NCBI GenBank assembly: GCA_021432605.1
Contig: MU271147.1
Location: 496,001 to 560,000, forward strand
Source of the DNA: Coniochaeta sp. PMI_546
Lineage: Eukaryota > Ascomycota > Sordariomycetes > Coniochaetales > Coniochaetaceae
DNA: 64,000 nt
Reading direction: 5' to 3'
In this document: positions 61-60,567 of the stretch, piece by piece
Layout of the letters: each line of letters opens with the position of its first letter
Position numbering within the stretch: position 1 is the first letter of the stretch
Notes under the pieces: generated by a model
The model's input: only the letters and a program-made list of their open reading frames with translations
Told to the model about the DNA's origin: nothing
Databases searched by the model: none
Position numbers and translations under genes: made by a program

Positions 61-3000
61 TCAGATCAGTCCAACCACACCCTTGGGCCAGATGGGCGGT
101 TTCTCCTCCGAGCTATCGCTCTCGCTGTCGCTCTCGCTGTCCTCATCGTCATCACCGGTCGGGTCCTCCTTGACTTCCTCTCCCTCCTTCCCATCTCCAT
201 AATCAGAACTCTGCTCTTGCGCTGAGTCGTGGTTCCCCTCAGCCAGCGTCTCCTGCTTCTCGATCATGTCGTCCAGCTCTCTCTTGGCCTCCTCTCTCGA
301 CATCTCGCTGACGTAGGGCTCGGCCCAGTGATGTTCGGCCAGCGCAGAAGCTACTGCCATCGTCCGTGCGAAGTCCGGCGTTGGCTGTGGCTCTTCTCCT
401 TCAAGAGACACTTTCTCGATGTGTGTCAGCCCGCCATATCCGGCGGGCCAGGGGTAGGGTCTATAGACAAGCGCAGACAAATTAGCTGACAGCGTCACTT
501 GCGGTCAGAGAGGGAAGTCGATCTGGAACGGCCCATACTTCTTGATGTATCCCATGAGAGCTTGGTTCTCCCACTTGGTCAGCGATACCATCCGGCCCAG
601 CTCACCAAAGCTGATCTTCACGATCGGGCAGCTATGAGGACGAAATGTGTTAGGCATATGAGACTTTACTGGTAGAGATGCCTGACGGGGAGTGGTGTAC
701 TCACCGAGGGCCGTCAAGAATATCCAGTGGCCGCATGTGCACCAGCGGTATCTTCCAGCGGTCCTCGATCTCGAGGAAGTCCGAGGGATAGTACCGCAGA
801 TCGCCTCCATTGACCGCACCCTCGCCCCAGAAACGCACCCAGTTGAACACCTTGCAGATACGGTCATCAGCCGGATCTCTGGCGAGAACGAGCAGCTCAG
901 CCCACTCGCACTCCGTGCTGTCTACCTTGACTGCTACCACCAAGTTGACACTCGCGATATCCTGCAGATATCGCTTGCTTCTCCTGTAGAGCTCAGCGCG
1001 TGACTCGCCGATGCCGACCTCGTGGATCACGGCAGGACTATCAATGTCTGTCCACGTGCTGTACACCCCGTCAGGAATCCTGCCCCAGGACTTGCGCTTG
1101 TCGTGCACCAGGACACGCTCAACACATTCGATGAGGTGTATGTATTGTATGGTTGACCTGGGCGAGTGCTTCCTGGCCACGTCGAGCTGGGCGTTGACCT
1201 TGTGCATGAGTGACTTGGCGATGTACGTGTGTTCCCGCGAGTACGCTGAGAGGTAGAGTTTGAACCCTGTGCGGCCGCTGGCGACAAACTCGATGCGATA
1301 CTGTCCGTCGGTCACCTTCTCCTGTAGCGTCTGGAACATCTCTGCAAACACCACGTTGGAGAGGCAGAGGAGAACCGTGACGTAGTCGATGGGCCGCTGG
1401 AAGTGCTTGAGAGTGACCTCTTGAAGCTGGAGGTCCTCAAACATCTTTGCGACATCGTCCAGCATCTCCCAATAGTCCGGTGATTTCCTAGGGAAGTACC
1501 ACGTAAGCAATGGATCACAGGGGTCATAGTCAGACGTCTCTGCCGCGACGCCGCCGCGACGGGAGCGCGGAAAGCGGAGGGGTTTGTCTTCTGGTATGGG
1601 CTCTAGGTCGAGCGATGCGCCTCGAGGATGGTAGTCGTTGTCTTCTTGTTTTGCCTCAAAGTGTGCGACCTTCGACTCATTCTTCCCTGGCTGGCGAGAC
1701 TGGCCATTAGGAGTGAGAGCTGGGGGTAGACGTTGAATTTCAGCAGGATTACTTTCGCGCTTGGCCTTGACTTTCCGCCTCTTGCGATTAGATCTCCGGG
1801 TCGGTTCGGTAGCATCGCGCCCTGTGGCTGATCTTGAAGTGGTACTGCCATCCCCGTCTGAACCGCGAGCTAGTGTCTTGCCCGTGCGTTTGCCCTTCGA
1901 CTCAAGCCTGCCGTTGTCGGAGCTGCCATCTTCATCGGTTCCAGCACCTGATGTACTGCCGCCAGCGACAATACGTCTGTTTTTATTGCGTGCCGGCTTC
2001 GGTTTGTCCTCGAAGATTCTGAGTACACCCGGCAAGAGTACTCTCGCATCGACAGAGAATTTCTCCTGCCACGGGACGTCAGCGTCCTCGGGTCCCGGTG
2101 GATCGGTAGGAACTGGTGCATTCCAGTCCTTCTTCCGGCCAGAGTGAATAAGCTTATGGAATGGTTGGGTACTGGAAGCCTTAAACAGTCGCGGAGACCT
2201 GCCGCCCTTTTGAACAGGCTCTGAATCCGAGGCTTGCGACCCAGCCTGACTATTGACCAGCCGCGTGCCAGGACTAGCCTTTCCCGTCTTGGCAGGCGCT
2301 GGAGAGGCTGTAGACCGTGAGAAAGGCTTGATGTGGCCAGGCGGTGAAGGGCTCGAGCTGCTCTCGGGTTGCTGAACTTGGGTTAGATCGGGAGATTTGC
2401 CAAGCTGAGAGCTGCTCGCGCCGTGGCCAAAATCAGAGCGAACTAGCTTCGGCCGAGTCTCACCGAAGCCGGCGCCGTCGGTTGTTATGGGATCGTACGA
2501 GGCCTGCTCGGTGGTCACTGTCTGCTGAAACCTTGGCGAAGATTGGTCAATACGGCTGACAGCGGGCGTGTTGGCCAGGGAGTCATTCGAGAGACTAGCC
2601 TCGGATGCGTCATCAGAGGTCTCGGACGTCTCGCTGTCACCATCGGAAGGAATCGGCACTCCCATGGCCTCGAGGAGCCAAGAAACGTGCCTTCGCCGAG
2701 GCTGTCTACAAGTCAGCAAGGAACGCCTGGGCTGTAAATGGCGGCACTTACCGGCCTTTCTCGTCCACGAGACAAAACAGAATCGATCGAGGGCAACTCT
2801 TTGGTTATGGGCAGAAACCAGAAGCCTCGTGATGAGCCTCGTGGCACTCCCGCGGAGTTTTTGTTGGTACACAAGGAAAGCAGCGAATCCCGATGACGGG
2901 GATCTCCGTTGGGTGGAGGCCAGAAGTATGTTCTGCGTTGTCTCGTTGGCTTTTGAGGACTCTCTGCCGGCCGCCAAGTATCTTCACGAGGCTCGGGAAA

Positions 3001-21285: not shown

Positions 21286-23805
21286 TCAGATCACGACGAA
21301 CTCACCGTATCCTGCCTCGTTTCTCTGGAAACCACGGACGACCTGGGCACTATCCACACTCTCGGGAAACGTCCCCAGAGCCATCACGAGTTTATCTTGT
21401 CGGAAAAGACTGGGGATCCTGCCAAAGTTCCCAGTTCCGAGCCGTCTGTAGACCTTGTCGCCGGGCTTGACAAAACGGCCGCCCCCGAACCCTTCGCCGG
21501 GTAGCACCTCGGTAAGAACAAGAGCCTTACACCCCACCATGCTGTAGTCTCCTTCAAGGATGAGAGGCATCCAGACGAGTTTACTCAACCCGACCCGAGA
21601 GGCAGCCATCTCATAGCCCTCGGTCGTGTCTGAGGCGAACCATAGCTTCTCCCCGGTGGCTGCGTCTGTAAGGCTCGTGCTCACCGAGCTGCCCTCGTAA
21701 TCGTAGTTCGCCTTGGTCTCGGAGGCCGAGATGGGCTTTAGGCAGCCCCAGATGCGCAGCCAGCCGGCCGTCACGGCCGCATACTCGAAGGTGGTGGCCA
21801 GTGAGACATCAGCGGCACGGACGTCGGCGAGCGCCTTCAGACGATCTTCGTCCCCCGGCCAGGACATCGCCGCCATGACCACAGGGGCCTCGATACTCGC
21901 CCAGCTCCAGCTCGGCGCCACGTAACCCTCGGTCCCGACGCGTTTCCGGGCTGCTGTCGTCCTGCGCCCTTCACAGGTCATCCACGCCAGCTGGAAGACG
22001 AGGTTGGCATCCCACAGGCCAGCAAGATATCGCTTCTGCTGCAGGAGCTTGGAGTCAGCCAGCTCCCGGGCTACCGAGGAGATGGCAATCAGCCGGTCCG
22101 AGTCCTTGGTGAGCTTGCAGGCGGTGTAGTCGACGACGGACCCGTTCCAAGTGGCGAAGAAGCGTTTCATGAGGGCGAGCGCCTCGTGCTGCATTCGGGC
22201 CGCCGGCAGGGGGGCCCCAGCGGTGGCTGCCTCGGCAGCGAGTGTGGCAGGCATATCAAGCATGGACTGCAGCAGCGGCCTGGGGCCTCCGCCTTTGCCA
22301 CATCCAGCAGGCCAGGCCGGATGCTCTCCATGACTGGCCTCGTCGCAGACGAAGAAGACGCCGTGCGTGGCGAAGGCGAGTGTGCGGCGCGCAAGACTGC
22401 GCTCCTGGTACACCCAAGCGCGAGTGAACAGCGGCGCCAGCCGGTCACCGCCCCCGGGCAGATCAGATTGGTAGTCCCAGAGAAGCCTTGCCTCGCCGTC
22501 TAGGAGAATACAGGGCTGTCCTCGAGAGTTGAAGTTGGATGCACTCCCACCCAGCAACGAACCGAGGGCGGCCCGAAAGCCAAAAACGACTCGCGGGTCG
22601 CGGGCATCGTTGATGAATCCTTCATAGTCTGACTCTGTCGAGAGTGCAGCGATATTTAGCCACGCAAACTTGTAGACGTCGGCCATGACGGCACTCTGCT
22701 CCTGCCAGTCCGGGACGCTGTCCTGGAGGATGCACAGGCTGTCAATCCATATGTGGTCGAATCCTAGCGAGACGCAAACCCTGACAGCGTGCTGGAAAGC
22801 CAAGGGTAGCTTGTCCAAGGGAAGGTCCTTACGCCACGCGGCGAGTGTCTCGGCCGTGAGTACGGTACCGGTGCGACCTCCCAGCGGAGCTGAAGGATCC
22901 GGTGGTGGGCCCCAGCAGTGAGAAAACGACAGATAGTTGATGCCTGTGCAGAGCATAGCGGCTGGGTAATCAACTGCTTCAGACTTGAGCACAATGCGGG
23001 TGCTATACTTGGCAGTTCCTGTTCTCGCAATCCGGATGAGACGGTCCGGGAACCACGCGGCAACGGCCCGGCCGGGACTCTCGCTCCCAAATAGCTGGTG
23101 GCACTTCTTGTGGGTTGAGTAGCACTCTTGCATCCAGGAGGCCATCATCGCCAGGCTCTCACTACTCAGGGTCGAGCCAAAGTCATCCTCAGCACCGTGA
23201 AGAGCTGCGATGGTCTTGTGTTCGGGAACGCTCTTCCGCTCGGCTACCCCAGGCAGTGAGATGCGTGGGTCAGGATGCAGCATGAAAGATCCTTACTGGC
23301 ATGTTAGGACTCACTGATTCTGCCCGGGTGGCACGTCGACATACTCACCGATCCCCCAGCTGTAACCGCGCCGGTGTCGAACCATCAGGGAGACTCGGGC
23401 TGCCTGCTGCGAGAAGTGATGCCAGGAAACAGTCGCAGGCGCGTCAAACTTCCACGTCAGATGCCACTCACCCAGTGGAGTCTCTCGCAGACTGGGTTCG
23501 AATGAGACATGTTTCTGCATGCCGTCAAAGAGTAACAGCATCTTGGCGCAGATGACGCAAGATGCGCCTGAAAGAGAGGACATGGGCGAGGAGTGAGGCA
23601 TCTCTAGGGCCTCGCATGCCGTTCCAATGCCGTACGCATGGACAACGTGGTAGAGGAGGGTGAGGCATCGTCCGCATAGGCGGCGGGTGCCTGTTCCTGC
23701 GGTGGGCGGCAGGGGGAACGACAGTGTTGGGAATCGTGACAAATTGACATCGTTGTTATGATCCGTGAACTTTTTGACTGCCGAGGAGATGAGACGAGAC
23801 AGCAT
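21286..23805 (-). CDS. HET-domain (heterokaryon incompatibility) protein
   Basis: Two exons, 23805-23349 and 23291-21286, giving about 820 aa. The start is the first ATG (MLSRLISSAVKK); the frame is open slightly upstream but without another ATG. The 57-nt intron has a GTGAGT donor and CCTAAC branch. The only acceptor that keeps the frame is an AAG just after a CAG. The N-terminus has two Cys pairs (LCGRC and CVICA), common in this class. The HET domain (about residues 270-420) shows YLSFSHCWG, HIWIDSLCILQDS, DWQEQSAVMADVYKFAWLNIAAL. The C-terminal part (WTCEGRR, VAPSWSWASIEAP) is the usual HET-protein tail. HET proteins trigger cell death on contact between genetically different hyphae; the partner of this one is unknown. 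Confidence 0.92.
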
Positions 23806-24203
23806 TCTCCTGAGAGTGTCCAAGAGGCTTTGTTCAAGTTCGATGTAAGAGTTGCGTCAAGCATCTCGAGTATGTTGGTGGGGAGAGGGACTGTATTAGC
23901 GTGCTTCAGGTACGGCTGAGCGTGAAACTGTTTCTCTTGTTCAGGGCCCATCATCCACAGCACATGGTCCGCCAGTTGAAAGTGACCGGGGAAGTAACAC
24001 AGGGTCACAGTCACACTAGCACTGCAGCAGATCAATGCGAAAAGTCTTGCGAGGTTTAGAAATTGTGTCTGAATACCAAAGTATGTTGTGGGTGACGGGA
24101 ACTAAATAACAGCTCACCAACTATCTGTTTCCTCGGTTGCTAGTGGCTCTTAGTCTTGCGACACCCTGGACAACCATAAGAATGATCCGTTGTGTTTGTC
24201 ACT
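23806..24203. other. Spacer upstream of the HET gene
   Basis: About 0.4 kb containing the HET promoter and the 3' flank of the orphan gene at 24204. An ORF running 24035-23604 overlaps HET exon 1 in another frame and is treated as a shadow. Confidence 0.4.
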
Positions 24204-24815
24204 TCAGTCGGCAATTGCGTATGCAAGTGCTAAGCAGAAGCTACCGACCATCTCCAGGCTTTCAATAGCAAATACAATCCCGGGCTGGACTTTCTCCTCC
24301 CACCATTCAGCGAAATCCTCCATGATTGCGTGGAAGCGCGGATTTCCCACCTCCTCTCTCAGAGCCTCTTGTGCAGAATTGATGAGTGCCTGGACCTCCA
24401 AGAGATTGAGGTCTTGTTCCTCACGCGCAGGAATCTCCGCGCCAGACCCCGAGGCCTCTTGGTCTTGCGGCTTGAGTTGAGCCTCGGTGCCAACAAGTAC
24501 AACCTTTCCCGATCCAGACTTGTAGTCAATAATCTTACGCGCGGCATGTCGAAGGTCGCTGGACAAAGCTCGCCGGTCTGCGTGCTCGGTCTCGTCCTTG
24601 CTGGAGGAGGCCACTACAACTTCGTCCTTTTGGGGCACGTCAGCCCAACCATACCAAACCTCATTACACGGCCTTTTGAGCTGGCTTGTACTCACTCCTG
24701 ACCCTCGGATATCACTATCCTCGGATGTCGTCAACCAGTCCTGCAATTCCCTCCTAGCCTGGGCATAAATGAGTCGGGACTCGCTGGTTTTGACTTTGTG
24801 AATGTCTTCGTCCAT
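24204..24815 (-). CDS. Orphan acidic protein with hydrophobic C-terminus
   Basis: Uninterrupted ORF of 203 aa starting MDEDIHKVKTSESRLIY. Within it, 24695-24627 has all signs of a 69-nt in-frame intron: GTGAGT donor, GCTGAC branch and AAAAG end. The spliced form would be 180 aa and lose the Trp-rich stretch EVWYGWADVPQ. The protein is rich in Glu, Ser and Lys, and helical in the second half (EVQALINSAQEALREEV). It ends in a hydrophobic segment (GIVFAIESLEMVGSFCLALA) that could be a C-terminal membrane anchor. No Cys signature like that of its upstream neighbours. A TATATAAG box lies 109 bp upstream. I do not recognise a family. Confidence 0.55.
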   Translation of the reverse strand: MDEDIHKVKTSESRLIYAQARRELQDWLTTSEDSDIRGSGVSTSQLKRPCNEVWYGWADVPQKDEVVVASSSKDETEHADRRALSSDLRHAARKIIDYKSGSGKVVLVGTEAQLKPQDQEASGSGAEIPAREEQDLNLLEVQALINSAQEALREEVGNPRFHAIMEDFAEWWEEKVQPGIVFAIESLEMVGSFCLALAYAIAD

Positions 24816-24923
24816 GTTAACTTATTTCAGGGTGGTTAGTCGCACGTGGTCTCTTGTGTTCTTTGGAGTAGATCTGGTGAGGTTGAAATAGGATGGCCGG
24901 CGGGAAGTGGGCAGGGAGGCGAT

Positions 24924-24931
24924 CTTATATA
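24924..24931 (-). promoter_or_regulatory. TATA box of the orphan gene at 24815
   Basis: TATATAAG on the minus strand, 109 bp upstream of the ATG. The same octamer sits 111 bp upstream of the next gene in the row. Confidence 0.5.
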
Positions 24932-25200
24932 GACATATTACGGTTCTAGACGTCTAAACCATACATGCTCAGAGTATGCTCTCTCGTTGAATCCTGACAT
25001 TCCTGCCTTGTCACGGATAGGTCTCTCACTCAGTTTGGAAGCTGCGTGGAAGGCACTGCTCGGCAAGAGTTCCATTCACTGACTATTCATAGGTTGTAAA
25101 CGGCCCTTTTCGTCAGTCCCCGTGCTTCCTGAGACTCAAAGCTGATCGGTTTCCGAACTATGGACTCGACTAGCTCACCCCATCGTCCCATTCCTCGGCT
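24932..25200. other. Spacer between orphan genes
   Basis: With the TATA region this makes 385 bp between the orphan genes. Nothing else is recognised. Confidence 0.4.
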
Positions 25201-25785
25201 TCATGCACCGTAATTGCTCTTGAAGATGCTGCAGCTGAGATACCAGTGATGCTCTGTCATGAGGTGATGCAGGGCAGTCAAATCGATACCGTTCTCCTCC
25301 AAGTATGAATTCCATCGATAGTGTCCCAGAAATCCGCTAATCCAAACTATACGCTCCCTTCGCTCTACGAGTGCTACTTCGGCAGTGTCCATCTCTTTTC
25401 TGATCTCTTCAAGACGACCAATATTGCGCTCGAGATCCGTTACAGTTGTCTGTCTTGCGAAGAACCTTTTGCGTTCCCTCTTCAATTCCTCCTTGTCGGC
25501 TTGGAGGCGAATATCGATACTTCCCATCAGTCTACGGAGTGCATCGACAACAGATTGCCGGTGTTCTTGACATTCGCACAGCATCGGTATGTCAAAGTCT
25601 TTGCAGTCGATGCACTCCTCTGCCACTGGCAAATCTTCCTCGAGTGGGCTTTGGTGATCCATATTTGTTGAGCTGTGTGGTCGTAGAAGGAACTTGCTAC
25701 CTTCTATTGACGGAGTGTGTTCACTGGCATTTTTCACTACCCTTGAAAGTTCTTCTCCATCTAGACTGTTTCTGATAATATCCAT
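25201..25785 (-). CDS. Orphan CxxC-CxC coiled-coil protein 1
   Basis: Predicted single exon, 194 aa, starting MDIIRNSLDGEELSR at an ATG in context CCAACATGG (the frame is open 75 nt further upstream). After about 60 Ser/Glu-rich residues comes the signature CIDCKDFDIPMLCEC (Cys-x2-Cys-x8-Cys-x-Cys). A heptad-like helical region with many Glu, Lys and Arg follows (about residues 85-150). A C-terminal part contains ISGFLGHYRWNSYLEE. The LGHY element recurs in the gene at 28135. It belongs to a head-to-tail series on this strand, and the cysteine module suggests zinc binding. No known family recognised. Confidence 0.6.
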   Translation of the reverse strand: MDIIRNSLDGEELSRVVKNASEHTPSIEGSKFLLRPHSSTNMDHQSPLEEDLPVAEECIDCKDFDIPMLCECQEHRQSVVDALRRLMGSIDIRLQADKEELKRERKRFFARQTTVTDLERNIGRLEEIRKEMDTAEVALVERRERIVWISGFLGHYRWNSYLEENGIDLTALHHLMTEHHWYLSCSIFKSNYGA

Positions 25786-25895
25786 GTTGGTGACACGTGA
25801 GCGCTTGATGATTATATTCGCTTCTCGTCGTATATGTGTATGCTGGATGCATGCGAGCACAGGTGAAACTCAGGGAGGTCAAGATGCAGGAGCCA

Positions 25896-25903
25896 CTTAT
25901 ATA
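25896..25903 (-). promoter_or_regulatory. TATA box of orphan CxxC-CxC gene 1
   Basis: TATATAAG on the minus strand, 111 bp upstream of the ATG at 25785, almost the same spacing as in the gene at 24815. Confidence 0.5.
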
Positions 25904-26557
25904 TTCTTCTTCTGTACTCGAATCATGTAGAATGGCAACTAGTCAAGGTCTTTGACGGATTGTGGCACTGAACTTGCAGGCCAATGAGAAGACCCAGATG
26001 ATTCACGTCTTTGAGAATAGACATGCCTCTCATCAGGATCTACGGAGATCACCAAGGACAGTGTGAGGCCTGAAGTCTCTGGTAACGAGAAACTATTCTC
26101 GGCGGTCCGTGAACAGCGGCGCTCTGTTCTGTTTGGAGTGTCAAAAGTTGGTATAACAGCTGATGCTGGACAGAGGGCTGGAACCTTTGGAGCTTCTGAG
26201 CAAATGAGAATCATGTTGAGTGACAACCCGCTGATACTTAACAGAGACAATGACATGCATGATTCCCCAAGTTGCGTGATACTAGTTGTAAGAATAGAGG
26301 TAGTCAGACGAGAGTTGCATGTTCCTATGAGTACTTAGACGTTGCTGAACTGTAAGCTCTCGATTCAAGCAGAGCAGGTCGAATCAGCAGGTCAAAATAC
26401 TTACGGCGGTCTACTTAATGCTACGCAAAGCTGTTCACACTCGAAGATCCGCATCGATATTTTTGAGCTGAGATTTTTTTTTTCGAACTGACTGGGTTCT
26501 ATCTGCACTCCACGCCTTCATCCCGCGAGTGATGCTGACGCCCGATCAGAAGGCTTC
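25904..26557. other. Spacer between orphan genes
   Basis: About 0.65 kb with no supported gene. A T-rich run lies near 26470. Confidence 0.4.
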
Positions 26558-27320
26558 TCACCACTTGTAGGCTCCAGCCCTGGACGCCATCATCCGCCAG
26601 ACTCTCGCATCTTGGCCACCCGACTTCGCCAAGCCAGCGCAATATATTGCTAGAGAATCTCCACAAAGGGGCCATAACAACAACTCCTCCACTGAGATAC
26701 CCTCGAGCTTGTCCCAAACGTCTATCTTCCGTACCTCCCAAAATATATCAACTTCAGTGGCGCCGCTCACAGGTTTCAGTGGCTTCGGTGGAGTGGCACA
26801 CTTCTGCTTCACTTGGCCCGCGATCTGAATGATGCGTGGCCTTGATTGGGGGGTTAGACTTTCGAGAACGCAGCAGCAGAAGTGGACATGTTCGAGGTCG
26901 GTCTCCAGCCTGTTTCGGCGTTTCAAGATTGATGTTGCAATGACTCCCAGCTCGCGGTGCGACCAGATGAGCAGTTGCCGCTGTCGCTCACGAGCGAGTG
27001 GCTCGGGCCATACCTCGTTGTGATACTGCTTGAACATGGAGGCGATCTCCTCGTGCAGCTCGAACAGGTCAACGAGAATTGCTGCGCGGTAATGCAGGCA
27101 GTCGCACGCAATCGACTTGCTGTGACAGTCTTTGCACCGCTGTACATATAATATTAGCATGGGGTCTCTCATAACAAACTCAATAAAGAACCGTCGACAA
27201 GCGAAAAGTATTTACGTTACGCTGGACCAAGCGGATGACGGCTTTCCAGAGCAGGGCGATGATGCACGTTGAGGCCAGGTCTGAGATCATGCCGGTCATC
27301 AAGCTTAAAATCCACAGCAT
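26558..27320 (-). CDS. Orphan CxxC-CxC protein 2 with N-terminal membrane segment
   Basis: Two exons, 27320-27216 and 27139-26558, joined by a 76-nt intron (GTAAAT donor, GCTAAT branch, TACAG acceptor, phase 0), giving 228 aa. Exon 1 is one hydrophobic helix of about 30 residues (LWILSLMTGMISDLASTCII and on), a likely signal anchor. Exon 2 opens directly with RCKDCHSKSIACDC, i.e. Cys-x2-Cys-x6-Cys-x-Cys. A helical stretch (AAILVDLFELHEEIASMF) follows, then an Arg/Leu-rich middle with a CCC triplet. The C-terminus has many Trp (VWDKLEGI, VWRMM). The hydrophobic exon would put the Cys module just next to the membrane. A TATAAATA box lies 161 bp upstream. Family unknown; it groups with 25201 and 28135 by signature only. 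Confidence 0.6.
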
Positions 27321-27480
27321 GATGACTTTTGTGCCGAGATAAATTCAGCCAGCAGTCAGAAGTGGTAGATTATGGTTCTCAGTCGTCCGTTCTGTCGCTC
27401 AGTAGTAGATCCCTTGGTTTGTGCCTGGCAAGTAGACATGGAGAAGCAGAAGCAAATATGGTGAAGGTTGAGCGAGGCAG

Positions 27481-27488
27481 TATTTATA
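27481..27488 (-). promoter_or_regulatory. TATA-like box of orphan gene 2
   Basis: TATAAATA on the minus strand, 161 bp upstream of the ATG at 27320. Confidence 0.4.
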
Positions 27489-27712
27489 CGTTCCAGGTGA
27501 CCCGTGAGAAGGCACGTCGAGACAATGATTCCACAACCAGATCGAATTACGCAAGTTGGCCACAGTCCGGATGTGAGTGTGAGCTGGACCTACCTTAACC
27601 TTGTATCGAAGATTCAATTTTGTACCTCGCAGGCAGATGTTCAGTCATGAATGGCATCTCGGCAATCATAGGCACATCGCTGGTCAGGAAGCACGGAAGT
27701 TGTCGATCATCT

Positions 27713-28120
27713 CAAAGCCTCTCCCAATATTTGTTCTGTCAACTTGAGTAATTCGGCGATGCTGCCCAGCTGTGTCTTGAAAGAGGTTAAAGCTTCGGCC
27801 AATTTCAATCTGAGTTCTCCATCCATATGACTGGACCAGACTAGACCAATCAGTCCTCTGTTAGTACTTCCACTTATGGTGGTTTTGCGCAGTTGCTCTA
27901 TAACGCCGGCAAGTGCCCAGTCTGTACATCACACACTCACGAAGACATCTGTCACTGCAATGGCAAGGAAGAGGTACGGCGTCTGGACCAAGAGGTCAAT
28001 AATAGCGGATAGGCTAGAGTCTGCCGCTTCGATACATTTCTCCACCATCCCGGACCCTGTCTGAGCTAGCCATTCGCTCGCCTCATGCCGCTCCCTTAAA
28101 ATGATAACCTTCTCCTTCAT
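27713..28120 (-). pseudogene. Possible degenerate orphan paralogue with hydrophobic helix
   Basis: From the ATG at 28120 the frame reads MKEKVIILRERHEASEWLAQ, then a hydrophobic segment (IIDLLVQTPYLFLAIAVTDVF), then GTGAGT and an in-frame TGA. Past that stop the same frame stays open and reads like coding sequence: DWALAGVIEQLRKTT and a long amphipathic helix (LRLKLAEALTSFKTQLGSIA) before its final stop near 27713. A 45-nt in-frame intron is conceivable but its acceptor is poor. The alternative is an ordinary nonsense change in a decaying gene. The ATG lies only 14 bp after the stop of the gene at 28135, unusually tight for two fungal genes. No Cys signature. Treat as tentative. Confidence 0.3.
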
Positions 28121-28134
28121 GACACATACGGTGC

Positions 28135-28726
28135 TCAAGCATCCGTGGATGGTTCATTCGACGTCTGATCACTCGACTTTGCTGACTTGCACTCTATGTT
28201 GTGCAGCTTTGCCAGGGTAACACGCTGCTCTTTCAGCTTGTCCATAGCAGTTTTGATACCAGGATCTGTAGAGTAGTGCCCGAGGGTGCCGAGCATGACT
28301 GACCACTCATCAATATCCTCCAACTCCTCATTCAGGACATCAGCGCCCAGCCCTCGACTCCACAACGGAACTCTTGTGGAGATAGCCTCGCATAGGGCGT
28401 CGGCTAGAGTCTCGTGCACGCTTCTGAAGCCGGGATCTTGACGTTCGTGTTCCCGTAGCTTTTCGATTTCCTCTGCCAGTCCCTTGATAAACGGAGCCAT
28501 ATCACGCCTGAACTGCTGGCAGCCACACAGTCCAGTGCTTGAGCAGTCCTCACATGGGCTGTCCTCACATGAGCTGTCCTCACATGAGCTGTCCTCACAT
28601 GGGCTGTCCTGTTTCGGCTCGTGTCAGTATCTTCTGCCGGTTGCATGCCTAACACGGGTCAATGTTATTTACAGCTTCATGTTCAAGATTGACGCTCTGG
28701 GTGGCGTCTGAATCCTCCGTCGACAT
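28135..28726 (-). CDS. Orphan CxxC-CxC protein 3 with pentapeptide repeats
   Basis: Two exons, 28726-28673 and 28608-28135, with a 64-nt intron (GTAAAT donor, CTGAC branch, AACAG acceptor, phase 0), giving 175 aa. The start reads MSTEDSDATQSVNLEHEA. Exon 2 begins with four copies of Asp-Ser-(Ser/Pro)-Cys-Glu, then runs into CEDCSSTGLCGC, i.e. Cys-x2-Cys-x5-Cys-x-Cys, the same signature as the two genes downstream. A helical acidic region follows (GLAEEIEKLREHERQDPGF), then a part with MLGTLGHYSTDPG, which shares LGHY with the gene at 25201. No membrane segment. The repeat adds a cysteine every five residues, which could bind extra metal. Family not recognised. Confidence 0.6.
28546..28605. 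repeat. Four tandem 15-bp units encoding Asp-Ser-(Ser/Pro)-Cys-Glu
   Basis: Four near-identical 15-bp copies (gtcctcacatgrgct on the plus strand) inside exon 2 of the orphan gene at 28135. Only the g/a position, which makes Pro or Ser, differs between copies, so the expansion is recent. Confidence 0.9.
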
Positions 28727-28861: not shown

Positions 28862-28880
28862 TATATATATATATATATAT
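28862..28880. repeat. TA dinucleotide run
   Basis: Perfect (TA)n tract of 19 bases, 136 bp upstream of the ATG at 28726. It may serve as the TATA element of the orphan gene at 28135. Confidence 0.7.
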
Positions 28881-29334: not shown

Positions 29335-29745
29335 TCAATCATCATCCCAATTGATAGATTGGTACGTCCAACATAAATGAGCAACATCATGACCCGCCTC
29401 GACGTCAGGGTCACCTTGATCCAGCATGTGCGCCGTATCAAAGTCAATGACCATAATCTTGTCTCCAACCAGCATGAAGTTGTCCAGTTTAGGGTCGCCT
29501 TGCCCTACCTTGAGGTGGGTAACAGCTCGAATTGTCTTTGAGAGCATGGCTTCAAGATGCCTGATGTCCAAGCCATGAGCATCGCTTAAGCCAACACCGC
29601 CGACGTCTGATATGATGGGAGCACGTGTACCGGCTCTCTTGGTTCCGGGAAGTCCGACTGCTTCGTAGGATCTAGGCATGGCCGTTCCTTGTATATGAGC
29701 TAATGCTTGGTGATTCTCTTTTCGTTTTCGATCTCCTCTCTCCAC
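29335..29745 (-). pseudogene. Truncated kinase-like gene, C-lobe only
   Basis: The frame reads AHIQGTAMPRSYEAVG, then a linker with IISDVGGVGLSD, then the kinase-like C-lobe core VGQGDPKLDNFMLVGDKIMV and VIDFDTAH. This is the catalytic-loop Asp, the Asn three residues on and an Asp-Phe-Asp metal site, as in fungal APH/protein-kinase-like proteins. It ends about 35 residues later (LCWTYQSINWDDD), short for the family. The nucleotide-binding N-lobe with its Lys is not found upstream. Just upstream another frame reads VEWREEIENEKRITKH, the kind of sequence that normally precedes the QGTAMPR element, so a one-base shift or a missed intron separates them. Most likely a decayed host gene. Confidence 0.55.
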
Positions 29746-50831: not shown

Positions 50832-53261
50832 CTATCCACCCTGTAGTGAGTGTCCCGATAGAATACTTTCAGTGGGAGGTGACCTTGCATCCTTACTGGA
50901 ATCGGCTGCGCTCTGGACCTGCGAGCGGTCAGAGTCCTCCGCCTTCACTAGCGACTGCAACCGGGTAGGCCCAGCAATACACCTCGAAGCCGTCTCTACG
51001 GCACACTCCAGCTCACTCGCAAAGTCGTCCTTGCCTTGTGTATGCCCCTTCTTCCCGCGCTTCCTCTTCAGAGCCTGACCATTGGCGACCGCCGGGCTCA
51101 GGGGCTGACGCCCGCGGAACTCGGCCCGCTCGAAGTCTACCACCATGAGCCTCCCACCCTCGCCGAGCATGTTGCGTGGCTCCGCATCGTGGTGGAGGAC
51201 GCGCAAGCTGTGTATCGCCTTGAATGCCGCCGCGACGCCTTGGACGAGCTGCGCCCGGCTTGCCTGGCCGTGACACTCGAACAGGGGGCGTCCGGCCCAG
51301 CCGAGAAACAGGAAATGCTCGTGGACGCGGCCGTCGTAATGGTGCGGCCGGAGCAGGTCTATGCTGCTCAGACAGACGGGCACGTACTTCCCCTGTATGG
51401 GCCGGAGCCGGTCGTACATGTCGTTCTCGTGCTGCAAGCAGGCGCGGTCGACGCTCTCGACGCCCTTGACCACGAGCGTGTAGCCATGCGTCGAGAGTCG
51501 CACCTTGTAGAGCGAGCCGCGTGCCCCGGATCGATAGAGCGGTGTGCAGTCCGCGCCGGGACCGCGATCTCTGGCGAGCTGCTCTCGGATGCGGTCGAGG
51601 AAGTCGAGCCGGTCGATGCGCCCCTGACGCTCGTGATGTTGCGAGTTGGGACAATCCTTGTCCGGGGCCAAGCCGTAGGCCAAAGCAAGTAGACATTGCT
51701 GCGTGCAGAAAGGCCGGGTGTGTATGCTTGACTCCGTCTGGCTTGGCCCGTGATGCTGGCCTCTGGGCTGTCCTCCATTCCTGCCGCCGCGAGATCCCAT
51801 CCTCTTGGATGACGCCGTCTTGCCCCGAGCGCTAGTAGGGGAGGGCGGGCCGCCGTCGTCGGCGTCGTCATCATCATCTTCCCGGGTCCCGGCATGGGCA
51901 TCCAGTTGCTGGCACCGAGAGCGGGTGCGGATCGGCGAGCGCTGGAAGCCCTTCCAACGTTGGGGCTTGTATGGGGACGCGCGGGGTTGCCCACGTTTAC
52001 GCTCCGTCACGGGAATACTTCTCAGAACGTCGTCATATTCGATAACCCACGTGTCAAGCCTCTCGGCCTCGTCATGCCATGACTGTGGCGGTGGCCTCTT
52101 GCGGATTGCCTGGAGGATGAAGGCGAAGACCTGCGCCGCTGCCGTGCGATGGAGTCTTGTCTCATCGTCTTCTAGAACGTCTAGGCTCGGCACGCATATT
52201 GAAAAGTAGACGTTGGCGGGATCGTCGGGGACATGGAGGAAGACAAAGGCCTCCCCTGTGCAGATATAGCCATACTGTATACCCTTGCCGACCATGTAAG
52301 AGAATAGTTGCGTGACGACGGCGGCAGCGAGTCGTTTGGCAGTAAAGGCGAAGCCCTGGCCGTCCTTGTTGATGATGTCCCGCTCCGGCTGAATCTCTGA
52401 CTCGAGACCCGTGACGAGCTCGTCCACGCTAAGTTTATGTGGCGCCTTATGTTTAATGGCGAGGACTGGGACGCTCTGCCCGTCTGAAGTCCTGTATGCG
52501 CAGAACTGGTCCGCTCGATTGCCCTTACCCCTCGCCCTAAGACGCGCCCTGGGAGCCGCCGCCGGGGGCTGTGCGGTGGCAGATGATGATGATGATGATG
52601 CAGGCGCTGTCGTTGTCGCTGTCGCCATGCCACCCGCGGCACTAGCACCGGCGTTTTCAATAGACATAAGATCCAGGGGCCCGGAGATGGGGTTGTTGTC
52701 GGTCACACCAAGGTTCGTATGGCTCTCAAAAGTCACCGTTCCTCGAAGGCCGAGGGTGCTCCGTAGCAGCGGGTCTGCAGATATCCTGTCGACCATCTGC
52801 TGAACCGCGTTTTCGACGACTTCGCACTCAAAGTCCCTGAGCCCCAGCTCACTACTGATGGGCTTGAGCCGCGACCTCACGTAGTCTAGCTGATGCTGAG
52901 ATGGAAAGGCGGGTACGGAGAAGAAGATGGTGCCGACCGAGAGCTCATCCCAGATCTCCTCCTGTCTGACGGAGAAGTCGTCCCAAGGGATGATTCGTCG
53001 GGGGAAGATCCGGCCGCTGGGGTCCGTGGTCTCGCCTTGTGTCGTCAGAGAGCGGTCAGTTACGACCTGGACGGCAAGGTCGAGGGAGTGACAGGCCTCT
53101 AGGTATTGCTCGAAATTCAGTGGCTGCGACGTGGTCGCAAGTTGTTCGGCGGCTTCGCGCCGGCGTCGCTCCTCTTCGCGTTGGCTCTCGGCCTCTTCGC
53201 GCCTGCGTTGCTCTTCTCGTAGCAACCTTCGCAGGGTTTCCAGCTCATTCGTGTCCTCCAT
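50832..53261 (-). CDS. Predicted nuclease-like plus kinase-like fusion protein
   Basis: Single exon, 809 aa, starting MEDTNELETLRRLLREEQRR; the frame stays open 288 nt further upstream, but the coiled coil (residues 1-45) marks the usual start. Residues about 245-390 (ADQFCAYRTSDG, VLAIKHKAPHKLSVDELVTG, YMVGKGIQYGYICTGEAFVF) form a conserved fungal domain that resembles a PD-(D/E)XK nuclease fold; the position normally Glu of the E-x-K pair appears to be Lys270. A disordered acidic linker follows. Residues 575-715 are kinase-like: Lys599 (LVVKGV), QGKYVPVCL, the loop VLHHDAEPRNML with Asp692 and Asn697, and metal site VVDFERAEF. A KRKRGKKG cluster suggests nuclear targeting. Such nuclease-kinase fusions are expanded in ascomycetes; their role is unknown. 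Confidence 0.75.
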   Translation of the reverse strand: MEDTNELETLRRLLREEQRRREEAESQREEERRRREAAEQLATTSQPLNFEQYLEACHSLDLAVQVVTDRSLTTQGETTDPSGRIFPRRIIPWDDFSVRQEEIWDELSVGTIFFSVPAFPSQHQLDYVRSRLKPISSELGLRDFECEVVENAVQQMVDRISADPLLRSTLGLRGTVTFESHTNLGVTDNNPISGPLDLMSIENAGASAAGGMATATTTAPASSSSSSATAQPPAAAPRARLRARGKGNRADQFCAYRTSDGQSVPVLAIKHKAPHKLSVDELVTGLESEIQPERDIINKDGQGFAFTAKRLAAAVVTQLFSYMVGKGIQYGYICTGEAFVFLHVPDDPANVYFSICVPSLDVLEDDETRLHRTAAAQVFAFILQAIRKRPPPQSWHDEAERLDTWVIEYDDVLRSIPVTERKRGQPRASPYKPQRWKGFQRSPIRTRSRCQQLDAHAGTREDDDDDADDGGPPSPTSARGKTASSKRMGSRGGRNGGQPRGQHHGPSQTESSIHTRPFCTQQCLLALAYGLAPDKDCPNSQHHERQGRIDRLDFLDRIREQLARDRGPGADCTPLYRSGARGSLYKVRLSTHGYTLVVKGVESVDRACLQHENDMYDRLRPIQGKYVPVCLSSIDLLRPHHYDGRVHEHFLFLGWAGRPLFECHGQASRAQLVQGVAAAFKAIHSLRVLHHDAEPRNMLGEGGRLMVVDFERAEFRGRQPLSPAVANGQALKRKRGKKGHTQGKDDFASELECAVETASRCIAGPTRLQSLVKAEDSDRSQVQSAADSSKDARSPPTESILSGHSLQGG

Positions 53262-53935
53262 CGTGACTGTAGCGATGCAGGCAGGCCCTATCGCGGCAAG
53301 ACAAGCGCGGGTGCCTGTCGAAGCAAGGAGCTCGTTCGAGCTGGGTTGGAGGATTCGCACGGCAGCTGCTGACGGTTCGGGAAGTCTGGCATCAGATCCT
53401 GGGGGGGCAATGGTCGACGTTGATGGCGGAGTGCTTCTGGCGGAGTGCTTCTGATGTAACAGACACGAAGCTGACGAGATGTTGCAATAGGCGAAAGGGG
53501 TTCCGCCAGGATTCGAATATGTCCAAGAGCGCATGACGGCGCGCGGCACCGTGACGTTGTACCACCCGCCAGATGTTCATTGTGTATGTGACCGCGTTGG
53601 CCGGACCCCAATCAGCCAAGCCGCTCCCAAATACACGCCAATTGCACGCGTACACGTGCGGCTGGCAGTCACTTGACCGAGGTGCTGTAGGACAGTGAAC
53701 TGTATCATCGTAGGGCAGTACTCGCTACATTCCGGCGTTTGCCCGGAGCTGGTTCCAGTCATGTTTTCCAACGGCTTTCCTTCCCTCGACAGTCATCATC
53801 AAGAAGTTGAATGCCGTCCTGGCAGGTGGATTTCGGACGTGAGCAGCGAGTACAGTAGAAGCTCAAAGACCCCCAGGGACACGCCATTCCGAGGCTCTAC
53901 GGAGAAGGCGTCTGTGATGGCACTCTGCCCTCATA
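53262..53935. other. Promoter region and spacer
   Basis: Upstream flank of the nuclease-kinase gene. Its first 288 bases continue that gene's open frame. Nothing else supported. Confidence 0.4.
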
Positions 53936-54100: not shown

Positions 54101-56332
54101 AGCCGATGGCGTCGCACACTGGACTGCCTTCTACCACGAGCATAATGAGGGTTGAGCCGTCCAAGAACTTCGGTTTCGTTAGGCTTGGTGGCCCTCCCGA
54201 GCGGACATGTTGCTCAAGTAATCCTGTTAGCATTAGGTTTGCAGACCTGTCTTGCGCAGTATCTGCATCTGGTCCAAGATCTGCATTTGGTCCAAAGTAA
54301 GATTGCTTCTCTGGCTGCCTGCCATACGCCAGTGGTCGACATTTTCGGCTGTTGTAGAAGTCGCACAATGCGTGCGCCCCGCGGGAAGGAGGCTACCTGG
54401 GTGATGAGGGCGGGCATGGCAAATATCTCTAGGACGGAAGGGTGTCATGAATATTGGTCAACAGCTCGGACGGTGGAATATGTGGGCGTCGCATATGGAG
54501 TGACGAACATTGCCGCGACAGGCTATGAGAGATTGCCTGGTAGGAAGTCGAGCGGCGAGAGACGAGGATGGGCTTCAGCACCTAGGTCGAGGAAGGCGCC
54601 CAAGATAAAGGTCAAGCCAGTGGGCGAGTTTACATATTGAGGCTTGAAGTCTCAAGGATAAATGTGTGGGATTGGTAAAGCTAGTGAGGAGACATGTGGG
54701 CATGCGGACATGCGGCAGTGGTTGCGGTCATCGGTATCCTGTAGTGAACACGGGCCGAGAACGAGTTCGTGATTTACATAGTAGCTGTCCGGAGCGTGCA
54801 AGGCGGAGTAGCTCTGGACTGGTACGTATGTATCCTGAGACATTCATCTTCACGTAGGCCACAAGGCAAGTCGATAAGTTGCTCTCAGTCTAGGGATTGG
54901 CGATACCCTCGCGCAAGGGAGGGCTATTCTGTAAGCTTGCGCCGGTAATATAAATCCCCGACATCTCTACCTACGTAGGAGTATTGGGTTCGGTCCAGCT
55001 GGGGCCGAGATGCTGCCACCTCTGTCATCACAGTTCCCACCCTTTGCTTCATTCAGCGTAAGGAAGCTATACTTAGTAGTCAGGCTTTCTCGGACACAAC
55101 TTCGAGCTGTTACGTCAACTTGGGACAGCAGCTGAAAGCTTGCCGTTAAAAACACTCTTGTCTCTGATTGTCTTCAACAGTCCCGCAACGAGTCTTGCAA
55201 CTGTAGCGGCCGAAGAGTCCGTTGATCTACGGCATTTTGTCATCGGCCTTAAGAGAAGGGAGCAGCAGTACCCCTTGATGTGCTGAGCTTTACTGTGGGA
55301 CAGAACAATATTTCGCAGGGACCACAATAGGAGAACTGTTCTTCTCGATACCTTATGATTGGTCTTCTCACCACACCTGCCACAGTAGTGTACATCTTAC
55401 TTCTGCAGCGGGGTGGCGCTCGGCCGTTGGAGATCTGCATGTGTGCCAGCTCAGCAATCTTCAGCGCTGCACATCGATGACATCGACGGCTTTTTTGGGG
55501 ATGCCATAACTGCATGTACACTACTTGTATCGGTGCCAGGCAGTCAGGGCTCACAGTTCCCGGTATGGCTTGTCCTGCTTGATCTGATCGTCTCTCATCT
55601 AACCGCCTTCGTTTCACACAACAGCAGCGCTTTGTATTGAGCCTGGAGTCTTTCACTGACGCAGTTCCCTCTGATCTGGGAGTTCTGGTCAGACGAGAAT
55701 CCCTGCCGATCCCCGCGACTCGTGGCTGGAACTCGAACTCCGCCTCAATGCCTACGAGTCCGGTTCAAGTCCGGGTAGAATTAATTAATCTTCGTGAGGC
55801 CACCGGCGCCCAACTCCAATGCCAAGGTAACGTCCTAGCGAAAATATGCAGTCTGTTAGCGCCAGAAGGCTTAGAATGCTACGTGAACACTGGCTACCAG
55901 CTTACGTTATGTCTGTCGTGAGAGTTGTGATCCCGAAACCACCTGTCTGTTCCTTGTTCCGTAACCTTGATCTGAGATCTTTGACGCTGGTCTTATCCCA
56001 TCTTTCAGCCTGACAATCGTCTGGATTTGCGACTGTTATCGACTGTTATCGCAGTATCATTGATACTGCTAGCATATCTGGCATTCCTCCTGATTCACTG
56101 TAGCCGACGCGCGCCCTTGACGGCCTCCAGTCTCGCGCCGGCACCAAAGGGAGTTGACACAAAGCATAGCTTGTTTATGAATTCGGTGAATTCCCCAGAC
56201 AAGTGCGCTGCGATCAGAGAGTGTTAGACGAAAGATACATCAACGCCGCTATTTGCCCCTATTCACGTATGCGCCCGACCGACAACTAGAATGCGGTAGC
56301 ACTCCCCTGTGCTGCCGTGCACCAACTTCGCA
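54101..56332. other. Intergenic region with old coding-like remnants
   Basis: About 2.2 kb. On the minus strand, 54450-54101 shows coding-like stretches in alternating frames and a small tandem duplication (Leu-Asp-Gln-Met-Gln-Ile twice, about 54259-54297). Nothing assembles into a clear gene. The part near 56200-56332 should hold the promoter of the next gene. Confidence 0.3.
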
Positions 56333-59300
56333 ATGGAAAGCTCCTACGACCCTGTCTTCCACCAGTCCGGCTCGTCAACTCCGATGTTAGTGATGGTCAA
56401 AGAAGCTCACCCTTGTGATTGCTCTGCTAACATGTCCGCGTCTTCCAGGAGTCCAGATGTACCCTCCGGCCCCGCTAGCCAATACAAGGCGAATGTCAAC
56501 CGAACGAAGACACGAAAATGGGTCGAAGCAAAGACAGTAGACTACGGCGGCGATGATTGGGGCGGCGACTACGATGATGAACCCGCCGAGCCCGAACCGC
56601 AATCTCAGCCTCCCCCGAAGCCTCATGGTCCGCGATCGACGGCTGCCCTTTCCAACAGCCAACCGCCCTCACCAGCAGGGCCACGTCCACTTCAAACGAC
56701 TGGGCTTACGGCTCGGCAAGCGTCCCCAGCGGTATCGTCGAGCCCGGGCCTAAGAACACCAGTCGGTGCGCCGGCCTTACACATCCAAACCCAACAACAC
56801 TCGGCCGCCCAACCACCAACTATAGACACCGAATCGCCTTGGAGGCAAGGCCCACCATCGCGAGGAAGCACACCTGGGATAGAACGGCAAAGGGAGATGT
56901 CTCCACATGTAGTAGGGGTGCCACAGAGTGCAACTACGTCAAGCGTGTATTCTGCCGTGGCGGAATTTGGACAACTGTACGGCGACAGAGGAGCTTCTCC
57001 CGGCCCCTTTCAAGGGCAAAGACAGAGGACAATGTCACCGGGGCCTCAAAGCGCGAGCAGTTCCGTGCCAGCTCGGTTCCCGCGACGAAAGAGCAGTCTT
57101 GGCCAACACGATGCGCCAGCAGACACTGTATACTCTCCGACCCAGGAAGGCAGCACACGGCAGATTGGATCTAGACCTGGATCGAGTCACACAAATGCGG
57201 GTCCCATAATGTCACCAAATAAACCGTGGATGGTGGAAGAGACGGTAGGAGGCCCTCGATCTGCTTCGCCTTCAGGCAGCATGAGGTCGCCAACTACAAC
57301 AGGGAAGCCCCTGCCGTTCGTACGGCCGGCAGACATCTACAAGAAGCTGGAGGAAGAGAAAGAGAAGGTACGAAGGTCTGTAGACTCTGGGAGACCCAGC
57401 ATGGATAGTCTCGGCCTAGGGCGCGGAAGTGAGACTGCGAGCAATTTGAGGGCTCAGTCGCCGGCAGGAACGTCACAGAACACTCGGCAGACACATGAAC
57501 AAGGACAGGTGCAGCCAGATTCGGATGCTACGTCCCCTGGACTTACACGCGTCGCGGACGTGCCTTTCACAGAGGAGGTGCCAGTAGAGTCAAAGGAAGG
57601 CAAGGAGAGCGCCCTGCGACGCGACAATGACGAGACCATCACGCCACGAGGCGCCAGACCGGGTCTGCCGACCGTGGCTGAGAGAAAGAGCGAGTATGGG
57701 ATCGAAGGGTTGATCGCGAGCTATGAGGCACGAGGAGGTACATCTGGCGATACTTCTCAACCTGACGCGTCTCCATTGGCTAGAACAGCCGAATTAGGAA
57801 GCGTGCCTGCCTCTCAACGGACCGTCCCTGCCAGATCTTCAGCAACTTCGCGTCAGACACCGAGAAGCGAGATTGTCGAGACCAGGGTTGATCAAGTTCA
57901 AGGCGCCAGGGAATTGCCAGAACTCGACAAGACGGAAGGAGTGACGCGGGATGAGAGCCGCGGATCTGGCCATCCTCAGGAGAAAGGCGGAAAGGAGGCT
58001 CAAAAGGGTGACCAGGTCGAAGACCTCCAGAAGATGCAGTCTGGGGAAGAGCTCAGGCGACTCTCAACAAGTCCTAAATTGCCAGAACTTGGTCGTCTGT
58101 CTGTCTTTGGACTCGACCTTTTCTCCTCTTCGGCTGCCTCTGATCCGGCAACCTCTTCTTCCTCTCTCAACCTTTCGACATCCTCACCACCACCCCCAGT
58201 TCCAGCAATCCCTTCTTCGCACACTATTTTGTCACCAAGCTCTCCTCTGTCAACCGTTCTTGAGTCACCCTCGTCTTCATCAACACCGCCTCAGCAAGAT
58301 GCCAGTCTGGTCCAAACTCGTCAAGCCCAAGGGCAAACGTCCGGAGACCAGGCAAGAGCAGGCGTTGGACCCAGGTCCGAGCCTCCCTCGCCCGCGGACC
58401 CCTTACCCAGATCCCACAACTCCAGTCCCGATGCCACCCCCACAGTGCACCCAGATGAACACAGAGACCAACATCGACACTCTCACACGGCAAAACCAGA
58501 CCCAGACGCCGGCACCAGTACAGAACAATCCTCAACCGGAGACCGAGCAGCAGCAGCAGCAGCAGCAGCAGCTCCGTCTTCCGAGAGGCCGCAGGCTGGG
58601 CCGAAGAATTTCACAGCTCTTCACGCCGGGTCCGACCCTGTCACGAGTAAGTCTGAGTCTGAGCAGCCGCCGAGCGTTGACAAGGCTCTGCCCGAACTTC
58701 CGTCTGAGGTATCAGTGGTAACACCAGATCCTCAGGCCTCGCAGCTCGCCATCTCTGCACCTATTCCCATTGCTCCATCCCAGCAAGGGTCAGCTGAGGG
58801 AGACGGCATCAATGCTTCGTCCACCACTGATTCGAAGTTGACTCTTCACCCTTTGCTGCTCCAGCATTCAGAGCAGGGTAAGGCCATTCCCTCACAGGTC
58901 AGTGCCAGCAGCAGCTCTCAAGCTATATCTGCGCCTGTCCCGTCATCGACACCAGCTTTGAAGCTGCCGCCGGTTGACGACCAGGCCTCAGCTCCTCCCA
59001 AGGTTCCAGGGCCATTGGTTACGGACTATCAAAGCTATGATGCTTCGTCGTCAGACAATGTGACAGTACCCTCATTGCAGTCGCCTACCAACAGGCTCTC
59101 CGATGATGGAGACGGTGAGCCGACGATGCCCAAGAAGCAGCTTGTCCAAGGTAGCTTTGCCCGTGATGACTCTGACGACATTGTCACCTCCCCTGCCCAG
59201 CCCTCCACTGCTCCTCCTCCACCACCGGTCGAGATGTCTCGTGGAGAGACGTACATGACTGCACTTGAGTCACCACTGTCGGAAAGTGCTTCCCCAACGA

Positions 59301-60567
59301 AGAGCGACAAGCTCTCAGCAGAGATCCTGCAGTCCTTGTCCCCTGCTGCGCCCCACACCACAGCTGTTGTTGAGCCTGCTGACGGCGGCAATCCTTCGTC
59401 TGAAGGTCCCTCCGGTGCTGCCCGCGAGTCTTCATTCCTCCCCGACCTGTATGATGATTATTGGAGCTTCGCGGGTGCTGGCAATGCCAGTGACACAAAT
59501 GCCCCTCCCGCTGTCCCCACCGTCCCCACCAGCACAGTGTCGGACGCCGTCCCTGCTGCCCTGAATGTCCAGTCAGATGACGCTCGCCCGATGTCACTGG
59601 CGGTTGCTGACGACGACGCTGTCCGCAAGGTAAGTCCTCCCTTTATGTTCGGCTCACCTTGGTGGCTTCCAGTCGTCACTAACGCGCACAACAGACACAA
59701 CAGAGCCCACTCTCGTCTGCTCCGGCTGCAACCCCGCGTTCGTCTGTGGATGTCTTTAAGACCGACGTCCAAGCAGTCACTGTCGAGCTGCATCGCCCTG
59801 TTCTTTCGAATAGATTTTCATGGGAACGCGATGGTATCGAGGCCGCCAAGGTTGACATCCAGGTGGAACCAAAATCCCTCGCGGACAAGTCACAGACAAC
59901 GGCCCCTGTCAGCACACTCTCAACTGAACCCGCTTCTGTCGGTCCTGCTATGAATGTCAAGTTGCCTGATCCCATTTCAGAGGTTACCGGGACCCCTTCA
60001 CCAGCGCCCGCATATGAGGACAAGGGCAAAGGTGTGGCCCAGAGCCGCTCACCATCCCCGTCTTTTTCGTTCCAGCAGAGCACTGCCACTTTGCCGCCAG
60101 CAACACTGGGCAATGCTGTTGCTGAGAGTTCCTCACAAGGCTCTCGTGTTCACCCTGGACCGCTGAGCTCCAATCCCGTCATGACCTTCCGCGAGATTCT
60201 GGAGGAACCCTTGCAGACTGACCGGATCAGGGAGTTCAACAAGGCTCGCTCCCACTATGCGGCGGCTGATACTGGCCTAGAGACTATTCTTGAGCATCTG
60301 GCTACCCAGCACCCAGACATTGTCGCAGCCAGCCGTGCTGGTGGAGCGACTTCTGAAGTCTACACGCACGACATGCCCAGTGTCCAGGATGTGGGCGGAC
60401 TGCTGTCGCCAACGGCTCTTGGGACCACGCCTCCTTCCGCTCGCCACCATAGTCACACAACTGCCCACCTGGGCCCGAAGACCAAGGAGTTCTTTGCAAC
60501 GGCGGGCAAGGCCTCCAAAGGCCTGTTCTCGACCTTGAAGGCAAAAGGCAAGAAGGTAGCCAACTAA
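56333..60567 (+). CDS. Very long disordered protein with conserved N- and C-terminal motifs
   Basis: Three exons, 56333-56385, 56449-59629 and 59695-60567, giving about 1368 aa. Intron 1 (63 nt, GTTAGT, GCTAAC, CCAG) is a multiple of three and stays open if retained. Intron 2 is 65 nt. The N-terminus carries a motif conserved in fungi, QYKANVNRTKTRKWVEAKTV followed by DYGGDDWGGDYDD. The C-terminus has a conserved helical domain (PVMTFREILEEPLQTDRIRE, RSHYAAADTGLETILEHLA) and a basic Lys-rich tail. The more than 1000 residues between are Ser/Pro/Thr/Gln-rich and disordered, with polyproline stretches that could bind SH3 domains and a run of nine Ala. Similar proteins are linked to the cell cortex or actin in fungi; for this one that is inference. 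Confidence 0.8.
58546..58572 (+). repeat. (AGC)9 microsatellite encoding nine Ala
   Basis: Nine AGC triplets inside the long disordered protein, read in the GCA frame as polyalanine; another frame would read Gln. Length is likely to vary between strains. Confidence 0.9.

Follow-up and report, generated by a model that had tools for sequence, protein, structure and literature searches.

A same-strand array of small orphan genes, three sharing a four-cysteine signature, upstream of a conserved HET gene in Coniochaeta sp. PMI_546

The lineage-specific genes of Neurospora are mostly without known domains, are clustered near HET genes and often have their duplicates adjacent to one another (PMC10684091); to that extent, clusters of lineage-only genes close to HET genes have a precedent in another fungus. 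The array described here from Coniochaeta sp. PMI_546 consists of four genes, A to D, of which B, C and D share a four-cysteine signature. As domainless, clustered genes beside a HET gene, B–D resemble the Neurospora clusters, and the array fits that type. The words cysteine and zinc are absent from the main text of the Neurospora paper, although CCHC-type domains are mentioned for two genes in its section 13. The Coniochaeta array, for its part, lies ~0.52 Mb inside a 2.74 Mb contig, measured from the closer end, and hence is not shown to be subtelomeric.

At Podospora het-B, incompatibility is determined by a HET gene together with a non-HET gene beside it (PMC10890737), and our locus likewise pairs a HET gene with non-HET neighbors. 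The het-B partner is PII-like, whereas the array comprises four genes that belong to no Pfam family. Fungal metallothioneins contain Cys-x-Cys; the same motif occurs once each in B, C and D, and C has a CCC run in addition, but unlike metallothioneins the bulk of B, C and D is long, charged and cysteine-free.

What the locus offers is a concrete, testable candidate for a lineage-restricted family, in which the same four-cysteine signature is retained while the remaining sequence has mostly drifted apart, beside a widely conserved HET gene. If the array and the HET gene are linked, the locus would show how new recognition parts attach to an old cell-death protein; if they are not, it would be one more orphan cluster. 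No description of the signature in fungi came up among literature titles and the openings of abstracts, which leaves its absence from print unproven.

Layout of the array and the adjacent HET gene

The window, by which we mean the whole 64,000-nucleotide stretch analyzed (C5:496001-560000), belongs to a 33.5 Mb genome in 24 contigs. On its minus strand D is transcribed first, followed by C, B, A and the HET gene. Gene D (28135..28726) encodes 175 aa after predicted splicing of a 64 nt GT-AG, phase 0 intron at 28609..28672, and its product contains a CEDSS-type repeat, CEDC-x5-CGC-x2-FR and an LGHY segment. Gene C (26558..27320), with a hydrophobic N-terminus and CKDC-x6-CDC-x2-YR, encodes 228 aa once a predicted 76 nt intron (27140..27215, GT-AG, phase 0) is removed. 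Genes B (25201..25785, 194 aa) and A (24204..24815, 203 aa) are intron-free reading frames; B carries CIDC-x8-CEC-x2-HR, a long predicted helix at residues 76-164 and an LGHY segment, and A, which is without the Cys module, has a hydrophobic C-terminus.

A first-pass annotation had placed three minus-strand Cys genes at 25201-25785, 26558-27320 and 28135-28726, with LGHY common to two of them (B and D) and a Cys repeat in one, and these coordinates, strand, frames and features all hold. The repeat is the CEDSS-type repeat of D, a 15-nt coding minisatellite of 4.7 copies (28540-28610) beside the Cys module, and its copy number could differ among strains. The membrane helix assigned to the start of C is sound insofar as the N-terminus is hydrophobic (mean hydropathy 1.73 in the best 19-mer), and membrane anchoring would be an extrapolation from this. 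The fourth gene at 24204 does lie in the same orientation but has no Cys module and is similar to none of B–D. A possible fifth gene at 27713-28120 is unsupported: among the splicings examined it has an in-frame stop, its ATG stands 14 nt past the D stop codon, and TATA[AT]A is absent from the 200 bp before it.

As had been claimed, a HET gene directly follows the array. It occupies 21286..23805 on the minus strand in two exons, drawn from ORFs 23311-23856 and 21286-23292, and matches PF06985 with an E-value of 2.9e-20. Its ATG at 23805 was placed by eye from the resemblance of the first exon to P0010, and is ~0.4 kb beyond the stop codon of A, so that gene and array are arranged head-to-tail. 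Among the matches listed, relatives with 44-75% identity over most of the protein's length occur in many fungi, including Sordariales, Botrytis and lichen fungi, the closest named ones being from Cladorrhinum sp. PSN332 (68%; Podosporaceae, Sordariales) and Lasiosphaeria miniovina (64%). The genome has 87 matches to the HET domain, some of which are fragments of a single gene. The idea that Cys-module genes would recur beside other HET genes found no backing: the motif is absent from the 72 kb that surround two groups containing 5 of the 86 other matches.

On the other side of the array, a short minus-strand open frame at 29335-29745 weakly resembles the catalytic region of small kinases (Bud32, 0.0073; WaaY, 0.014). 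No longer kinase frame was noticed beside it in the ORF list, and it is possibly, judging by its sequence, a gene remnant adjoining D.

The cysteine signature and the kinship of B, C and D

The signature common to B, C and D is C-x-D-C-x(5,6,8)-C-x-C-x2-[HYF]-R, in the forms CIDC..CEC (x8) in B, CKDC..CDC (x6) in C and CEDC..CGC (x5) in D. The basic pattern, CxxC-x5-8-CxC, has six matches in the six frames of the window, compared with a mean of 0.58 and a maximum of 3 in 100 simulated windows generated by a first-order Markov model. This excess is only about twofold when judged against real DNA, since real sequence is richer in the motif than the Markov null: a 200 kb sample of the same genome (20 pieces of 10 kb, four of which flank the window) contains nine basic matches, or ~2.9 per 64 kb. 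Only one of these nine belongs to an open frame 150 codons or longer, and both CxDC and the final R are missing from all of them. When x2-[HYFW]-R is added to the basic pattern, B, C and D are the only matches left in the window and none of the 100 simulations yields one, with the qualification that the D and R positions of the extended motif were chosen post hoc from the three sequences themselves. The shared Cys-x2-Cys-x(5-8)-Cys-x-Cys of the three genes is real and exceeds chance, its extended form is unique to them in the window, and the three extended modules are all on one strand in a span of 3 kb. The match CPVC..CHC at 27914 on the plus strand, in a 55-codon frame and without the extended motif, was treated as due to chance.

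Apart from the module, the three proteins had been described as otherwise dissimilar, which does not hold for B and D: these align over most of their length with a Smith-Waterman score of 76, equaled by none of 300 shuffles. Scores for C–D (52; 1/300 shuffles as good) and B–C (44; 6/300) are lower. With cysteines masked, 11 of 300 shuffles do as well as the true B–D pair, compared with 117 for B–C and 134 for C–D; the latter two values are at chance, and so the kinship of C rests on the Cys module. Gene A fails the alignment test as a family member, with 250, 156 and 198 of 300 shuffles as good as its true alignments with B, C and D respectively, and has in common with them only its strand and the TATA arrangement described below. 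Leave-one-out profiles of the module were run against the 6971 open stretches of the window and a further 272 kb. In these, D was the top non-training stretch (E 0.025) and so was C (E 0.3), while B ranked fourth (E 1.4) below three unrelated stretches; such E-values are weak in themselves. The proposal of a tandem family without described relatives is therefore supported for B and D and only probable for C. On these sequence comparisons we regard B and D as related and C as probably related to them, and the three probably arose by tandem duplication.

Predicted structures of the Cys module, which were to be compared, were obtained by modeling B and C, with the Cys regions at low confidence and not resolved. 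The model of B (mean pLDDT 59, pTM 0.27) contains the long helix noted above, whose residues 81-140 have block means of 74-89, but its Cys region stays at about 50 or lower; the model of C, with a mean pLDDT of 43, is unusable.

Distribution and upstream sequences

A search for relatives by profile, proposed in the first-pass annotation, was carried out and returned only one orthologue-like record per gene. The B-C-D profile retrieved three records at E 10 from 5.8 billion proteins, and D alone retrieved one; the queries were B–D together and D singly, and the search detects only relatives sharing exact 5-residue words. As a control, the adjacent HET protein retrieved at least 326 proteins at E 1e-20 from the same set, many of those listed bearing NCBI fungal names, although scoring was confined to the 7998 candidates with the most words in common. 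Because this control finds many fungi, the absence of B–D relatives is meaningful within the short-exact-word limit, and by these searches (B–D together, D alone and the HET control) B–D have no relatives outside the lineage.

The nearest records of B–D, at 87-94% identity and with no indel in the lengths compared, are P0003 for B (169/194 identical), P0004 for C (182/193, exon 2) and P0005 for D (114/121 in the covered part, which starts past the Cys module); the module is accordingly seen to be kept in the relative's records for B and C only. All three come from a source labeled lgn, where their contigs measure 1589 and 2529 bases. The origin of both P0004 and P0005 from the 2529-base contig is consistent with C and D being neighbors there too, and that contig appears to keep the C intron, since the start of P0004 resembles the translated end of it. 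Between B and P0003, residues 1-55 keep 39 of 55 positions and residues 56-194 keep 130 of 139 (Fisher p 7e-5). The description of the family as fast-diverging therefore suits the paralogues, which are very diverged, but not C exon 2 or the covered part of D, both 94% identical to their nearest records; present-day fast evolution is shown by these comparisons in no more than one region, at the variable N-terminal end of B.

When B, D, C exon 2, two fragments of the module and A were searched against the same genome, no locus other than that of the query came up, and the module profile found no further copy in the window plus 272 kb. The search with D missed B, so distant copies would escape searches of this kind. 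Pfam gave no match at E 5 for A or D exon 2, and for B and C exon 2 the best values were 0.0062 (an H-NS-like coil) and 0.13, all below family cut-offs. NCBIfam at E 1 gave no match for B, C exon 2 or D exon 2 and one at chance level (0.086) for A, and solved structures searched by sequence yielded chance-level matches only.

Upstream of the four genes, on the minus strand, TATA-type sequences occur at similar distances: TATATAAG at 24924..24931 (−116 of A), the same TATATAAG at 25896..25903 (−118 of B), TATAAATA at 27481..27488 (−168 of C) and, as the weakest of the four, a TA microsatellite of 9.5 copies at 28862..28880 that matches TATAWAWR from −153 of D. All four genes thus have TATAWAWR between −50 and −180, in a test that was post hoc in that the TATA sequences were first noticed by eye. 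In the background, the motif occurs in 101 of 6080 overlapping 130 nt stretches and in 28 of 2974 of similar GC (0.9-1.7%), and in none of 45 stretches before long ATG frames, which are rough gene starts. Further shared upstream words amount to one 8-mer in three of the four genes and none in all four. These data suggest that A–D have one promoter type in common and that A is tied to the array by regulation rather than descent. TATA promoters accompany regulated genes in yeast work, and the proposal of a stress or inducible module is mildly supported by the TATA-type sequences before A–D. Co-regulation of the array with the HET gene is unsupported, because TATA[AT]A is absent from the 400 bp before the HET ATG.

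Interpretation of the array

Our best reading is of B–D as a tandem family that is old, diverged and restricted to the lineage, and whose proteins are small, helical and probably metal-binding, with regulated promoters. In the fuller version this old family is confined to the fungus and its close kin, each gene has a promoter of its own, and the addition of A makes an array of four genes on one strand that lies upstream of the conserved HET gene; this version seems to us about evenly poised between right and wrong. Metal binding is plausible from the four cysteines, and CxDC...CxC suits a single metal site adjoining helices. In the mechanism we envisage, the C-x-D-C...C-x-C group would bind one metal ion, most likely zinc, and would cap the helical or coiled-coil part, through which the proteins may pair with themselves or with partners. 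The N-terminal helix of C would hold that protein at the membrane while B and D would be soluble, and the promoters would turn the array on under particular conditions.

The chief competitor, which we consider doubtful, is that these are unrelated orphan genes in a lineage-specific stretch and that convergence or chance produced the Cys signature in C and perhaps in B and D as well. The lack of similarity of cysteine-masked C to B or D, the weak leave-one-out values (0.025 to 1.4) and the unrelatedness of A all speak for it, but it must contend with three extended modules in 3 kb on one strand when there are none in 200 kb or in 100 simulations, with a B–D similarity that reaches beyond the module, and with the common TATA arrangement. 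Far less credible is descent of B–D from the C-terminal CxC-helical domain of AflR-type transcription factors with loss of the DNA-binding part. Like B–D, the AflR C-terminal domain (PF08493) has a CxC and a probably helical region, in the AflR-type protein of this genome CACSDD precedes a hydrophobic and probably helical stretch, and the wider likeness of that domain to B–D is one we assume; but neither B, C exon 2 nor D exon 2 matches the Pfam profile at E 5 (a search in which HMMER filters drop most weak matches), and the AflR-type protein has neither CxDC shortly before its CxC nor x2-[HYF]-R after it. This AflR-type regulator is encoded at C11:810430-810735 (L004), and by our reading its N-terminus is Zn2Cys6-like.

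An allorecognition role had also been proposed, which from the position beside a HET gene is a guess. That array and HET gene form one working module, by analogy with the HET gene and adjacent partner of Podospora het-B (PMC10890737), we think unlikely. The head-to-tail arrangement, with the HET ATG so close to the stop codon of A, and the association of lineage-specific genes with HET genes in Neurospora (PMC10684091) count in its favor. Adjacency is cheap, however, in a genome with so many HET-domain matches; the HET protein has its listed relatives in many fungi, in none of which B–D found any; no TATA sequence precedes the HET ATG; and the module is missing from the 72 kb around five of the other HET matches. 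More improbable still is the combined proposal that B–D are a new zinc-binding family, induced together, that sets or restrains the neighboring conserved HET cell-death protein, as a lineage-specific sensor array on an old executioner.

Three further long open frames in the window are recorded for completeness. One of 760 codons at 701-2983 (minus) has no Pfam match at E 0.001 and one chance-level match at E 1, and another of 1217 codons at 56300-59953 (plus) has none at either threshold. The third, a 914-codon frame at 50832-53576 (minus), has a weakly kinase-like C-terminus, below Pfam cut-offs, and a Glu/Arg-rich stretch.
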